Positions 13,161 to 19,514 of a stretch of 64,000 bases of DNA are shown piece after piece. The translations under genes and the position numbers were made by a program. Origin of the DNA: a bacterium GBS-1 (GTDB taxonomy: Bacteria; Synergistota; GBS-1); the NCBI GenBank assembly GCA_001443005.1, contig LEKQ01000001.1:516792-580791 (forward strand), read 5' to 3'. The notes beneath the pieces were generated by a model. That model was given only the letters and a program-made list of their open reading frames with translations, did no database searches and was not told where the DNA came from. Every line of letters starts with the position of its first letter. The first letter of the stretch is position 1.

Positions 13161-15239
13161 ATGAAAGATCTTATACTTAAAGCTTTATCTAAAGCATCCA
13201 AGCCATTAAAGGCTGAAGATATAACTAGGGAAATAAGCGAGGTAGAAAATATAAGGAGGGCTCTTGAAGAACTAGAAAAAGAAGGAAAGGTCTACATAGA
13301 CCCAAGGGGAAGGGCTATCTTAGCCTCGAAGTTAAAGCTTGTCGCCGGTAGGATAAAGGTTCACCCGCGAGGTTTCGCTTTTCTCTTATCAGATACAGGT
13401 GAGGAGATATTCATACCTCCAAGCGCTATAAATGGAGCGATGAGTGGTGATAGAGTCTTCGTAAGGGTTAAACAGGAGAAAAGGAGAGGAAAGTATGGGG
13501 AGGTCATTAAGGTCATAGAGAGAGCGAGAACCAAGGTCATAGGAAGGTTAGAAATCTACCCTGCTTTCTCTCTTCTAATACCTGATGATCCTTCCCTGAA
13601 AGATCCCATATTGGTTCCCAAGAAAAACCTGATAGAAGGAGCACAAAGCGGAGATAAAGTCGTAGTCGAGATAAGCTCCTTCCCTATGGGATCGCAAGGA
13701 GCTATAGGAAGAGTGATCCGAGTTCTTGGCAAAGCTGGGGAAACAGAAACTGAGGTCTTAAGTATACTACTATCCTACGACCTCTCCCTTGACTTCCCAG
13801 AGGAAGTAGAAAAAGAAAGCGAGAGCCTGCCAGAAGACATACCAAGCGAAGAGCTAAAGAAGAGGGCTGATTTCAGGGATAAGCTTATAGTAACCATAGA
13901 CGGAGAGGATGCGAGGGACTTCGATGATGCCGTTTCTGTAGAAATCGGAGAAGACGGAAACTATATACTTGGAGTTCATATAGCGGATGTAGGCTACTAT
14001 GTAAAAGAGGGAAGCAAGCTCGACATGGAAGCCTTCAAAAGGGGGTGCAGCGTTTATATAACAGATAGAGTTTTACCTATGCTCCCATTTAGATTATCAA
14101 ACAAGCTTTGTAGCCTCGTGGAGGGAGAAGATAGGTTAACTTTCAGCGTAATAATTAAGATAGATAAAAGCGGTAAAGTCCTCGACTACGAGCTTAAAAA
14201 AAGCATAATAAGGTCAAGGGCTCGCTTAACCTATGAGGGGGTTAACGCCTTCTTCGAGGGGAAAGAACTCGAACCTTACAGCAGCTTGAGAAAAGAGTTA
14301 GAGCTGATGAAAGAGCTAGCCCTAATTTTAAGGGAAAGAAGACTCTCAAGGGGAGCACTTGATTTCAACTTTAAGGAAACGAAGATAGTCTTGGATGAGA
14401 ATGGAAAAGTTAAAGATGTAATAAGCTATGAAAGAGGGATAGGAGAGAAGATAATAGAGGAGTTCATGATAGTGGCTAATGAGTGCGTGGCTCAATTCGC
14501 CTACGAGAGACTCATACCCTTCATATACAGGGTTCACGACAACCCAGATCCTGACAAAATAAGGGAGCTCTCAAGCATTTTGAAAATCTTCGGATACAAC
14601 TTAAAGATAAAAGGAGAGATAAAGCCTAGGCACCTTCAAGCCCTCCTTGAGGAGTTAAGGAACAAACCGGAGGAAAGGATTATATCAACCTTACTCTTGA
14701 GGTCCCTCGCTAGAGCGAGATACGATGTGGAAAATATCGGACACTTCGGTTTAGCATCGCAGTGTTACACTCACTTCACATCTCCTATAAGAAGATACCC
14801 TGATCTAGTCATCCATAGGATCCTAGCAGAATTTCTAGAAAATGGATATATCCCTAAGGAGAGATACGAGCGTTTATCTGAATGGCTGCCTTTAGCAACC
14901 TCGAACTCCACGAAGAGAGAGCTCATAGCGGATGAAGTGGAGGAAGAAGAAAAGAAGTTCAGAAAATGCCTATATATGAAGGAGAAACTTGGAGAGATCT
15001 TTGAAGGAACCATAAGCGGTGTGATCCCCCAAGGTATATTTGTAGAGCTCGATAACGGTATCGAGGGATTCGTCCCCTTAGATCTTATGCCAAAGGATAG
15101 ATATATAGTCTCCGAAGAAAACTTCATGGTTATAGGAGCAAAGACCAAGAGGATATACCGCCTCGGAGACCGGGTAAAAGTTCAAGTCGTTAAATCAGAC
15201 CCCCTAACGAGAAAGATAGACTTCTTACTTATGGAGTGA
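13161..15239 (+). CDS. rnr: Ribonuclease R
   Basis: 3'-5' exoribonuclease that degrades structured RNA. 692 residues. Winged-helix N-terminus (about 1-55), cold-shock domains (about 60-215: GRIKVHPRGFAFLLSD), catalytic RNB domain (about 235-570) with TIDGEDARDFDDAVSVE supplying the metal-binding aspartates and HFTSPIRRYPDLVIHR, and a C-terminal S1 domain (about 610-690: FEGTISGVIPQGIFVELDNGIEGFV). No Lys-rich tail as in E. coli. ATG is 9 nt after GGAGG. Co-directional with guaA; its last 11 nt overlap the convergent HD-GYP gene. Confidence 0.96.
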   Translation: MKDLILKALSKASKPLKAEDITREISEVENIRRALEELEKEGKVYIDPRGRAILASKLKLVAGRIKVHPRGFAFLLSDTGEEIFIPPSAINGAMSGDRVFVRVKQEKRRGKYGEVIKVIERARTKVIGRLEIYPAFSLLIPDDPSLKDPILVPKKNLIEGAQSGDKVVVEISSFPMGSQGAIGRVIRVLGKAGETETEVLSILLSYDLSLDFPEEVEKESESLPEDIPSEELKKRADFRDKLIVTIDGEDARDFDDAVSVEIGEDGNYILGVHIADVGYYVKEGSKLDMEAFKRGCSVYITDRVLPMLPFRLSNKLCSLVEGEDRLTFSVIIKIDKSGKVLDYELKKSIIRSRARLTYEGVNAFFEGKELEPYSSLRKELELMKELALILRERRLSRGALDFNFKETKIVLDENGKVKDVISYERGIGEKIIEEFMIVANECVAQFAYERLIPFIYRVHDNPDPDKIRELSSILKIFGYNLKIKGEIKPRHLQALLEELRNKPEERIISTLLLRSLARARYDVENIGHFGLASQCYTHFTSPIRRYPDLVIHRILAEFLENGYIPKERYERLSEWLPLATSNSTKRELIADEVEEEEKKFRKCLYMKEKLGEIFEGTISGVIPQGIFVELDNGIEGFVPLDLMPKDRYIVSEENFMVIGAKTKRIYRLGDRVKVQVVKSDPLTRKIDFLLME

Positions 15240-16359
15240 AACTCTTGGAAAGATCAGCCAAGACATCCTTTATGAAAAGCTCGGACGAACTTAGGTCTAT
15301 CTCATAGGGGTCCTCTACCTCACTAGAGTATTCGTCGTATAAGACCTTGATTATAGGACGAATTGGAGACAATGGATTAGACTTTAAGACAACCCCTATT
15401 TTACCATCGCTGAGCCTCACCAAACTACCCACAGGGTATATCCCAAACCTAGAGATAAACCTACTTAAAACCTTTGGGTCAAAATGTATCGCACCCTCAT
15501 GAAGCATCTTGCTTATAGCTTCATAGGAAAGCATCCTGGGCTTATAAACTCTATCCGTGGTCAAGGCATCGAAGACATCAACGACTGAAACGATCCTCGC
15601 CAAAAGGGATATCCTCTCTCCACCTAAACCTCGTGGATACCCTCTTCCAGAAAACCACTCGTGATGCTGAGATATCACTGAAATCACGGAATCGCTTTTC
15701 TCCCCTGCAGATATAGCTATATCAACCCCATAAATGGGATGCTTCTTAATCCCTTCAAATTCCTCAGGTGCCAACGGCCCAGGCTTATTCAAGATCTCCT
15801 TAGGAACCCTTAACTTGCCTAGATCGTGAAGTATGGCTCCCTTCGTGACCGCTTTAAGCTCATCCCTACTAAAGCTAAACTCCAAAGCGAATAAAGCAGT
15901 CAATATTGACACGTTAACGGAATGAACGAAAGTGTAATCATCATACCGACTAATAGCATAAAGGCTTAACATTACCTCCCCCTTAGCTATAACCTCATTT
16001 ACCATATCATCAACTAACTCATCGACTTCCTTAAGGTCAAGCTCACCAGCTTCCGTAACCCTCTTAACCACATCTAAGGCTCTCTTCCTAGTCTCCTCAC
16101 TTATAATCGGAAACAGGGATAAAGCCTTTTTTCTAATCTCACCTATGGGAGGAACGGGAGCTTTATCCTCCGTCACATCTACGATAACCTCTTGAACGTT
16201 AAACTCCTGCAGCTTAACCTTAAGCTCCTCACACTCCTCCCAATCCCCTATCTTCCATCCTTTAGGCACAAGTAAAACTCGTAACCGCACCGGTTCAAAC
16301 ACATCTTCTCCAAAAACATCGCCCGGCTGAAGGTCAAAGACGCTCTTTTTAACTTTCAT
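15229..16359 (-). CDS. HD-GYP domain cyclic-di-GMP phosphodiesterase
   Basis: 376 residues, no membrane segment. An N-terminal DUF3391-like part (1-65: MKVKKSVFDLQPGDVFGEDV) precedes the HD-GYP domain (about 140-320). Metal and active-site motifs are intact: HSVNVSILTALFALEF, the HD pair in GAILHDLGKLRVPKEIL, KKHPIYGVDIA, and HHEWFSGRGYPRGL with the GYP triplet. c-di-GMP hydrolysis is therefore expected. It lies 26 nt downstream of cheW, from which it is probably transcribed, and overlaps the rnr 3' end by 11 nt. Confidence 0.92.
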   Translation of the reverse strand: MKVKKSVFDLQPGDVFGEDVFEPVRLRVLLVPKGWKIGDWEECEELKVKLQEFNVQEVIVDVTEDKAPVPPIGEIRKKALSLFPIISEETRKRALDVVKRVTEAGELDLKEVDELVDDMVNEVIAKGEVMLSLYAISRYDDYTFVHSVNVSILTALFALEFSFSRDELKAVTKGAILHDLGKLRVPKEILNKPGPLAPEEFEGIKKHPIYGVDIAISAGEKSDSVISVISQHHEWFSGRGYPRGLGGERISLLARIVSVVDVFDALTTDRVYKPRMLSYEAISKMLHEGAIHFDPKVLSRFISRFGIYPVGSLVRLSDGKIGVVLKSNPLSPIRPIIKVLYDEYSSEVEDPYEIDLSSSELFIKDVLADLSKSFTP

Positions 16360-16385: not shown

Positions 16386-16847
16386 TTAAGAAACCTTTAA
16401 AGCCTTTATCTCTTCTTTTTCCTTTTCAGTTAAGATCTTCTCTATGTTTAAAAGTATTATCAGCCTCTTATCTATTTTCCCAACACCTTCTATATACGCA
16501 GCCTCTATCCCAGCAACTATGGGTGGAGGAGGTTCTATATCCTCTCGGGAGATCCTTATTATCTCCGACACACTATCGACCACTATTCCGATGGTCTGGT
16601 TGCTTACGTTTACAACTATCACTCTCTTATCTCTCTCCGATACCTCCTCACCCTCAAGATTGAACCTCTTCTTAAGGTCCACTATGGGGATTATCTTGCC
16701 CCTCAAATTAACGATTCCCTCAACGAAAGAGGGAGCTTGGGGAATGCGAGTTATCTCTTGAATCCTAACTATCTCCTGAACTTTCGCTATATCTACCCCA
16801 TATTCCTCCTTACCAAGCCTGAAAACCACAAGCTGATATTCTTCCAC
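16386..16847 (-). CDS. cheW: CheW-like coupling protein
   Basis: 153 residues, GTG start with GGAGGGAAGG upstream. A single CheW domain: LVVFRLGKEEYGVDIAKVQEIVRI, IPQAPSFVEGIVNLRGKIIPIVDL and IVVNVSNQTIGIVVDSVSEII, the adaptor fold that joins receptors to CheA. A short Lys/Glu tail follows. No CheA, receptor or other chemotaxis gene lies in the window; its partner here is an HD-GYP protein, so it could link a receptor array to c-di-GMP turnover. Confidence 0.93.
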   Translation of the reverse strand: MEEYQLVVFRLGKEEYGVDIAKVQEIVRIQEITRIPQAPSFVEGIVNLRGKIIPIVDLKKRFNLEGEEVSERDKRVIVVNVSNQTIGIVVDSVSEIIRISREDIEPPPPIVAGIEAAYIEGVGKIDKRLIILLNIEKILTEKEKEEIKALKVS

Positions 16848-16886: not shown

Positions 16887-16915
16887 ATTGTATTACAACA
16901 TTCCAATTAATTCAA
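16887..16915 (-). promoter_or_regulatory. Promoter of cheW-HD-GYP
   Basis: -35 TTGAAT (16915-16910), 17-bp spacer, -10 TACAAT (16892-16887). It overlaps the last codons of the kinase-helicase gene, so cheW can be transcribed separately from the genes upstream. A small palindrome TTGTA-A-TACAA spans the -10. Confidence 0.6.
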
Positions 16916-19514
16916 GTAAAAACCTCGATGGTTCCGTTCCTTTTCCATCAAACTTCTTAGGATAGGACAAGAAAAGCAGCTCTGTTGCCCTCGTCATCGC
17001 AACGAAAAGAAGCCTCCTCTCCTCCTCAACTTCCTCCACCCTCGCCAAGCTCCTTAAAGCGGGAACATTACCATCGAAAAGCCCGGTTATAAACACCACA
17101 TCAAACTCCAACCCTTTGGCTGAGTGAAAGGTCAAGAGGTTAAGTAAATCCCCTTTATAAGTTAAACCCATCTCCTCCATTAAGGATAGGTAGTTCAAGA
17201 ATTCCCTCATCTCCCCTTTACCAAAGGATGATGCCAACTTTAAAAGCTCAAGAAAGCCTTCCTTAAAGGCGTTCCATTCTCCTCCCCTTCTCTTAAAAGC
17301 ACCAGATATATCCAAAGGGATCCTCAAAAGCTCTTCAACGGTGAAGCTCTCCCCCTTGATTAATCCATCGAGAAACTCTATCAGCCTCTCCGCTTTTTTC
17401 CTATTAGAGAAACGCCCATTCTCAAGCTCAATCCTCTCAGATATCACGAATCTGCTTTTCTTCCAACCTAAAAGCCATGAGAAAAACTCCGTCACCGGCT
17501 TAAGATCCCTATCCACCAATCCCTTAAGATAAGATATTACCCTCTTCACTTCCTCTCTCTCATAAAATCTCGATGCACCAAGCACTTGATAGGGTATCGA
17601 GAGTCTAATCAATTGGTCCTCTATAACCCTCGACTGGTAGTTATGCCTATAAAGAACAGCCATAGATGAGAGCTTTTTACTCGAGGAAAGTTCCCTCACC
17701 CTATGAGTGACAAAACGAGCCTCATCGATCTCATCACTAGCGATATAAAGCTCAACCTTACCCTCCCCCCTCATGCTCACCATATTTGACATATCTCTAC
17801 CTGCTCGAGACATTAACGAAGTTGCCACCCTCAATATGCTCTTAGGTAACCTAAAGCTATGGGTCAACTCATACCTCTTGAGGGAGAGTTCTCTCTCAGC
17901 TCTATCTAATACATCAGGCAGAGCACCTCTCCAACGATATATCGATTGATCCTTATCTCCAGTTAGGAATATCTCACTATCTTGAGAAGATAAAAGCTTG
18001 ATAAAACGATACTGAGCTTCATTAAGATCCTGAAGCTCATCCACAAATAGGAATCTAAAGCGCTTGGAGTAAACCTCCCTTGCATCCTCATCCTCAAGAA
18101 GCTTAACGCCGTAAAATAGAAGGTCATCGAAATCCATAACATCCATCTTCAGCTTCCTCTCGCTGAAATCATTATAGAGTTTAGCCACCTTTCTCTCCCA
18201 GGGCGAGCGAGAAAAACGCATAAATTCCGACGGAGATATGAGCCTCGCTCTTAAAATAGCTATTTCGCTTAAAACTCTCTCAATTTGAGGTGGACTAAGG
18301 TCATTAGCCAACTCCTTCAGTATAGGTAAGGAAGAGGAGATAAGGAGAAAGTTCTGAGAAAATCCAAAGCGCTCTCCTTCCCTCTTAAGTATCTTATAGA
18401 GAGCACCGTGAAAGGTCTCTATCCAGATATCCCTAAGCTCCTTACCCAAAAGCAGTGAAAGCCTCTCCTTCATATCGGAAACCGCCTTTTTTGTAAATGA
18501 TAAAACTAAGAAGGATGATGGGTCCTCCCCCTCCCTAAGCTTTCTGTAGAGGCGATATAGCAAGGTGGTGGTTTTACCCGTTCCAGCACCACCAATGAGA
18601 AGAATTCGCCTTTCAGGGGAAAAGACGACTTCTCTCTGAGCAGGTGTAAGGCTCAGCTCCTCAGAGGGGCGACTTAAAACTACATGAGGGAGCTCAAGGG
18701 ATCTCCCAAGCCTAAGGGCTTTTGCTAAATCCTCCTTAAATTGCCATGCGTTATTGTATCTGTCCTCCACCCTCTTTGAAAGAGCTTTAGCTAAAACGCC
18801 ATCTAGGTCAGAGGGAATGGAGGGTAAATAAAAACTTAAGGGCTTGAGCTCAAGATCGAAGACCTTTCTCCTTATATCCTCAAGAGTATCTCCCTCAAAG
18901 GGATTTCTACCTGTCAAAGCCTCATATATAACGACAGCCAGAGAGTAAAGATCGCTCGAGGGTAGAAAAACTCCTTCCCAGCTTTCGGGTGGCATATATA
19001 TCGGGGTTCCAGCTAGCGTGGCCTTCAAACTTCCACCTTTGAGGAAAACCCCTAAGCCAAAGTCCACTAGCTTAACACACCCCTCATGGGAGATTAGGAT
19101 GTTCTCAGGCTTAACATCTCTATGAAGAACCCCCTTAGAGTGAGCGTAATTGAGAGCATCAAGCACAGGGAAAAAGAAATCAGGCACCTCCTTAATCTCG
19201 ATCCTTCTTTTCTCTAGGACATCCCTTAACGATTCCCCTTCCACATACTCCATAACCAAAACCAGCTTCCCATCTATGATATCGAGGTTGTAAAACCTGG
19301 CGATATTAGGGTGATCTAAAGAAGCCAATATCTGAGCTTCACTTTTAAGGAAGCGGATCTCCTTCTCCCTAAGCCTTGAAACCTTGAGGGCAAAGCTCTT
19401 ACCCAAGAGCGTATCTTCCGCAAGGTAAACATCACCAAAAGCTCCACCACCAAGCCAAGATATTATTCTGTACTTCCCAAGCCTCGTAAGCAGCATTGGG
19501 GTGACACCCCTCAC
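16893..19514 (-). CDS. Ser/Thr protein kinase fused to UvrD-type (SF1) DNA helicase
   Basis: 873 residues in one uninterrupted frame. Residues 15-275 form a Hanks-type kinase with every key residue: Gly-loop GGGAFGDVY (22-30), Lys44 in FALKV, HRDVKPEN (131-138), DFG (151-153), GTPIYMPPE (169-177). Residues 287-873 form an SF1A helicase: Q-motif LTPAQREVV (289-297), Walker A GGAGTGKTT (308-316), ETFHGALY, VDELQDLNEAQ (491-501), GDKDQSIYRWRGA (519-531), SFRLP, TFHSAKGLEFDVVFITGL, and VAMTRAT (838-844). No membrane segment. GTG at 19514 overlaps the stop of the FtsA-like gene (GTGA); ATG at 19496 is the alternative. I know of no described protein of this design. Phosphorylation controlling a repair or recombination helicase is inference. 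Confidence 0.93.
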   Translation of the reverse strand: MRGVTPMLLTRLGKYRIISWLGGGAFGDVYLAEDTLLGKSFALKVSRLREKEIRFLKSEAQILASLDHPNIARFYNLDIIDGKLVLVMEYVEGESLRDVLEKRRIEIKEVPDFFFPVLDALNYAHSKGVLHRDVKPENILISHEGCVKLVDFGLGVFLKGGSLKATLAGTPIYMPPESWEGVFLPSSDLYSLAVVIYEALTGRNPFEGDTLEDIRRKVFDLELKPLSFYLPSIPSDLDGVLAKALSKRVEDRYNNAWQFKEDLAKALRLGRSLELPHVVLSRPSEELSLTPAQREVVFSPERRILLIGGAGTGKTTTLLYRLYRKLREGEDPSSFLVLSFTKKAVSDMKERLSLLLGKELRDIWIETFHGALYKILKREGERFGFSQNFLLISSSLPILKELANDLSPPQIERVLSEIAILRARLISPSEFMRFSRSPWERKVAKLYNDFSERKLKMDVMDFDDLLFYGVKLLEDEDAREVYSKRFRFLFVDELQDLNEAQYRFIKLLSSQDSEIFLTGDKDQSIYRWRGALPDVLDRAERELSLKRYELTHSFRLPKSILRVATSLMSRAGRDMSNMVSMRGEGKVELYIASDEIDEARFVTHRVRELSSSKKLSSMAVLYRHNYQSRVIEDQLIRLSIPYQVLGASRFYEREEVKRVISYLKGLVDRDLKPVTEFFSWLLGWKKSRFVISERIELENGRFSNRKKAERLIEFLDGLIKGESFTVEELLRIPLDISGAFKRRGGEWNAFKEGFLELLKLASSFGKGEMREFLNYLSLMEEMGLTYKGDLLNLLTFHSAKGLEFDVVFITGLFDGNVPALRSLARVEEVEEERRLLFVAMTRATELLFLSYPKKFDGKGTEPSRFLLELIGML

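Follow-up and report, generated by a model that had tools for sequence, protein, structure and literature searches.

The window, the whole 64,000-nucleotide stretch that was analysed, carries on its minus strand a gene in which a Hanks-type Ser/Thr kinase is joined to a UvrD/PcrA-type SF1A helicase. The first-pass annotation had described one intact frame at this position, with complete kinase and helicase motifs and about 12 residues between the halves. The frame and the quoted motifs are present as described, but the junction is longer, at about 20 residues. The plus strand of the same interval (16893-19514) contains stops throughout. The genes and features of the locus are these:

15229-16359, minus strand, HD-GYP-type phosphohydrolase gene (PF13487, 107.3 bits); gene order kept in the family
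16386-16847, minus strand, CheW gene directly downstream of the fusion, 45-nt gap (PF01584, 153.1 bits)
16893-19514, minus strand, kinase-UvrD helicase fusion gene, a single open frame of 873 codons (873 aa)
16896-18656, minus strand, UvrD/PcrA-type SF1A helicase, residues 287-873 (PF00580, UvrD_C, structural model, PcrA fold)
17310-17525, minus strand, 2B-domain stretch without the GIG motif, residues 664-735 (sequence comparison)
18027-18041, minus strand, helicase motif II DELQD, residues 492-496
18570-18593, minus strand, Walker A GGAGTGKT, residues 308-315
18657-18710, minus strand, linker, residues 269-286 (kinase end near 268, Q motif start near 289)
18711-19478, minus strand, Hanks-type Ser/Thr kinase domain, residues 13-268 (PF00069)
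19116-19124, minus strand, HRD catalytic loop, residues 131-133
19496, minus strand, family-consistent ATG start at residue 7, yielding 867 aa
19511-21661, minus strand, FtsA/PilM-like protein with C-terminal beta-grasp domains, 4-nt overlap with the GTG start of the fusion

Translation of the fusion could begin at the GTG at 19514, which overlaps the stop codon of the upstream FtsA/PilM-like gene, or at the ATG at 19496; the ATG is probably the start, since this is where relatives begin. Between these candidates lies a perfect short palindrome, GGGGTG-T-CACCCC (19498-19510, minus strand), which the compared relatives did not show in this position. Pfam assigns residues 15-254 to Pkinase (PF00069, 165.8 bits, cut-off 31.7), residues 289-542 to UvrD-helicase (PF00580, 204.7 bits) and the region up to residue 853 to UvrD_C (155.2 bits), all three far above the curated cut-offs. 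The fusion is the sole PF00069 kinase found in the window's genome (1.81 Mb, 98.5% complete), which has a separate standalone UvrD/PcrA gene elsewhere. A search of this genome for a PP2C_2 phosphatase found none, so an opposing phosphatase, if there is one, would be of another type.

Full-length orthologues with 67-69% identity are encoded in all three other sampled genomes of the window's GTDB family, so that four of four carry the gene, which is far beyond chance; it was found in none of the 184 further genomes that were sampled from the phylum. A scan of named genomes recovered the fusion on two contigs, from bacterium 42_11, one of these three family members, and from bacterium Dive96_bin4.233 (G188), whose protein is 41% identical to that of the window. 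A search around Dive96_bin4.233 led to genome G313, and a search around G313 to 150 genomes of a second group, of which 63 have matches that extend over both halves. A broad sample, comprising 386 genomes, yielded the fusion only in G188, G313 and G502. The total stands at 69 fusion genomes: four from the window's family, 63 from the second group and two further. The architecture is concentrated in another bacterial group outside the window's family. Most of the 45 aligned copies are 35-45% identical to the window protein. Among plasmid records, none covers 80% of the fusion protein, and a pattern scan of viral contigs found no fusion, its only match being to the kinase half at 29% identity. 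Although the named fusion-bearing records are metagenome-assembled, the occurrence of an identical intact architecture in 69 genomes, with copies on contigs over 2 Mb in G429, G442, G456 and G465, leads us to reject an assembly or annotation artefact as vanishingly improbable.

Both catalytic centres, as judged from the alignment of the 45 full-length copies, are intact and conserved. In the kinase, K44, E59, H131, D133, K135, N138, D151-F-G, T170 and E177 are invariant, as are the P+1 GTP and the Glu of the APE-type motif; the Gly-loop, VAIK Lys, alpha-C Glu, HRD, DFG and P+1 motif place it among the Hanks kinases, and it is apparently active. In the helicase, the Walker A residues G308, G311, G313, K314 and T315 and the D, E, Q and D of motif II (DExQD) are likewise invariant in all 45, and the copies keep the Q-motif Gln, the Q-x-I-Y motif, HxxKG and EERxL..V...R. 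The linker, measured between fixed columns, spans 18-28 residues in every copy. None of the 45 has a convincing hydrophobic stretch that could form a membrane helix. The HRD Arg is present in 41 of 45 copies, and HGD replaces HRD in the other four (residue 132 of the window protein), which suggests that activation-loop control may differ among members.

The two halves share one history. The 47 fusions form a single clade in the kinase tree (support 0.999, with 57 non-fused relatives) and again in the helicase tree (support 1.0, with 51 non-fused relatives), indicating that the halves were joined in one event and have been passed on together. Consistent with this, the pairwise distances of the kinase halves track those of the helicase halves (r = 0.876; the highest permuted value was 0.22). 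In the helicase tree, sequences of the second group surround those of the window's family, and transfer into this family is therefore likely.

The helicase half retains the SF1A core, with all motifs and the four-domain fold. An AlphaFold2 model of this half alone had a pLDDT of 90.6, and its best match in the PDB was apo PcrA (1pjr, TM 0.85). A full-length model built from three fusion sequences reached a pLDDT of 52 and was set aside; a 67-row mixed alignment, in which helicase N-termini were misplaced onto the kinase, had been set aside before folding. In the sequence alignment, this half is 15 residues shorter around residue 694 and has lost the RGIG-type element of domain 2B. The GIG motif is in place in none of the 47 fusions, in which two pattern matches lie elsewhere, whereas all 51 standalone UvrD/PcrA relatives have it (43 by pattern, 8 by eye). 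The pattern counts come from a broader regular expression that replaced a stricter first one, which had matched 6 of the 51 standalone proteins. Lee and Yang are said to have reported in 2006 that the GIG element contacts duplex DNA, and unwinding by the fused helicase may therefore be changed. Its absence suggests that the motor serves as a DNA-binding translocase and sensor more than as a processive unwinding enzyme. The fused helicases provide a natural UvrD/PcrA variant without the GIG element for the study of domain 2B.

Clustering of neighbouring genes yielded one recurrent partner, ARPP-1 (PF20208). ARPP-1 is present in 60 of the 63 fusion genomes of the second group, compared with 21 of the 87 without the fusion (Fisher 6e-20, ignoring kinship), and in the window's phylum in all four fusion genomes compared with 7 of 184 others (6.5e-6, ignoring kinship). 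In 21 of 45 loci it adjoins the fusion or lies close by, on the same strand every time, and in 17 of these 21 the gap is between -40 and +8 nt; in G502, too, it sits beside the fusion. Counting against ARPP-1 as a partner, the genome of the window and its family have the gene unlinked to the fusion. The relevant passages of the published account describe ARPP as a predicted enzyme in which a Cys and a Gln are conserved, with ADP-ribose as its proposed substrate, and as a putative component of systems that counter viral ADP-ribosylation (PMC9503650). Our ARPP-1 alignment (A3) has an invariant C106 and Q84, in keeping with membership of this family, but the contexts named in those passages are ARG/rhodanese-phosphatase, HIRAN, WYL and deacetylase genes rather than a kinase-helicase (PMC9503650). 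Through this association ARPP-1, predicted to be an enzyme but with no function demonstrated so far, acquires a recurrent partner.

In the window, the FtsA/PilM-like, fusion, CheW and HD-GYP-type genes lie closely spaced on the same strand, and the HD-GYP-type gene is probably in one operon with the fusion. The FtsA/PilM-like gene is directly upstream in three of the four family genomes. CheW occupies the same position in all four and in G349, and lies beside the fusion or close to it in G347 and G355. However, most loci do not show this link, and two further CheW-domain genes exist in the window's genome; both points count against CheW as a partner. The FtsA/PilM-like protein has an odd architecture kept in the family, in which several ThiS/TGS/ubiquitin-like beta-grasp segments come after an ATPase. 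At locus L102, in the family genome G001, the FtsA-like gene and the fusion are separated by two predicted genes, each encoding around 600 aa, and the one adjacent to the fusion has HEAT repeats. Two genes upstream of the fusion in Dive96_bin4.233 is a degenerate CheW-like gene (L033:7618-7968, plus strand; 22.3 bits, cut-off 23.5).

Compared with characterised families, each half is recognisable and each stands apart. The helicase shares its motifs and fold with PcrA, UvrD and Rep (TIGR01073, TIGR01074, TIGR01075; 1pjr, 3lfu), but scores only 305-366 bits where the equivalog cut-offs are 911-1144 (365.7 against 911.2 for PcrA, TIGR01073), lacks the GIG element, has an N-terminal kinase and coexists with a standalone UvrD/PcrA in the same genome. 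The kinase has the complete core of PknB/PrkC/StkP-type enzymes, which include its closest solved structures (1mru, 9ruj). It reaches 226.5 bits, below the cut-off of 450 for the Stk1/PknB PASTA kinase model (NF033483), however, and has a helicase in place of the membrane helix and PASTA repeats, for which there was no match. Most of what is known of Hanks kinases in bacteria concerns membrane sensors. The first-pass annotation had noted that a DNA motor stands here where a membrane helix and sensor repeats would be expected, and knew of no described protein of this kind; the 45 copies support the former point, and for the latter we found no description of a kinase-UvrD architecture in open-licence literature, NCBIfam, PADLOC or PHROGs. 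Both component enzymes are well known, and the joined architecture is undescribed within the literature and profiles searched. Beyond that annotation, the ARPP-1 partner, the altered 2B domain, the single origin and the concentration in another group all bear on mechanism.

Our preferred reading, held tentatively and at somewhat less than even confidence, is that the fusion is a soluble kinase that engages DNA and signals together with ARPP-1, a UvrD/PcrA-like motor taking the place of the membrane sensor. The helicase half would load onto single-stranded DNA at stalled forks, gaps or R-loops; its binding or ATP-driven movement would alter the kinase; and the kinase would phosphorylate targets in trans, partnered by ARPP-1 and in some cases by CheW. 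We count in favour of this reading that the fusion is the only Hanks kinase found in a genome without a PP2C_2 match. That the halves have remained joined ever since one fusion event, mostly accompanied by ARPP-1, argues that the protein probably represents a real and undescribed link from DNA state to protein phosphorylation. The B. subtilis kinase YabT, which is not known to be a helicase fusion, provides a functional analogy only. YabT has been described as a single-stranded-DNA-dependent Hanks-type Ser/Thr kinase that acts on the DNA-repair protein RecA, and PcrA as a phosphorylation target and phosphoprotein (PMC4754617). A narrower version, which we consider possible yet doubtful, holds that the protein is a bacterial DNA-status kinase: as the SF1A motor travels along single-stranded DNA, its movement would be converted directly into Ser/Thr phosphorylation, and ARPP-1 would be an enzymatic partner dedicated to it. 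If true, it would be a bacterial counterpart of DNA-damage kinases in logic, not in ancestry. The family allows the question of whether DNA state feeds Ser/Thr phosphorylation in bacteria to be addressed with one purified protein.

Regulation in cis, with the kinase acting on the helicase or DNA switching the kinase on, had been raised by the first-pass annotation and is plausible. Its strict form makes the kinase an on-board switch for the helicase, autophosphorylation changing loading, dimerisation or 2B movement, with no important substrates in trans. The short, nearly constant linker and fixed domain order, the strong co-evolution of the halves, the single Hanks kinase without a PP2C_2 match and the alteration of 2B, the regulatory domain of such motors, would all fit. 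A kinase with every substrate-binding and catalytic motif would usually act in trans as well, however, and we rate this strict form as rather unlikely. The same near-constant linker and correlated divergence weigh against a passive fusion, in which the shared polypeptide would serve stoichiometry or localisation only, without catalytic cross-talk. Such cross-talk is so far a matter of inference, which leaves room for this alternative, but a single fusion never separated over large divergence makes it improbable.

An anti-phage role is less probable still. In such a role the helicase would recognise invading or recombining DNA, the kinase would halt growth and ARPP-1 would handle ADP-ribose chemistry. 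The best PADLOC matches of the two halves are the PD-T4-6 kinase and GajB helicase models, and these are profile matches only. The proposed place of ARPP in systems against viral ADP-ribosylation, in the passages cited above, and the patchy distribution (63 of 150) would also suit defence. To our knowledge, GajB and PD-T4-6 are not joined in one protein. Both matches, however, are to broad enzyme families, and no GajA-like gene that would indicate Gabija is present among the window neighbours CheW, HD-GYP, FtsA/PilM-like and MutS2. Neighbouring genes resemble housekeeping genes (metK, gltX, dnaA, dnaN, exbB/D, mutS2 and rnr, named by sequence), and neither ARPP-1 nor the window neighbours tested match any PADLOC model; together these make a defence role less likely. 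The retention of the fusion in the same gene order in all four sampled family genomes and the lack of plasmid records covering 80% of the protein and of fusion matches in the viral-contig scan point the same way, and a scan of viral contigs for ARPP-1 found no relative.

In fusion-bearing genomes, ARPP-1 genes unlinked to the fusion adjoin RelA/SpoT (L167, L168, L169), a diadenylate cyclase (L171, L172), a GGDEF protein with AAA and TPR domains (L165, L166, L170) or a receiver-domain gene (L160-L163, with STAS in L161). These recurrent positions beside enzymes that produce the second messengers ppGpp, c-di-AMP and c-di-GMP, or beside receiver-domain genes, may hint at the role of ARPP-1.
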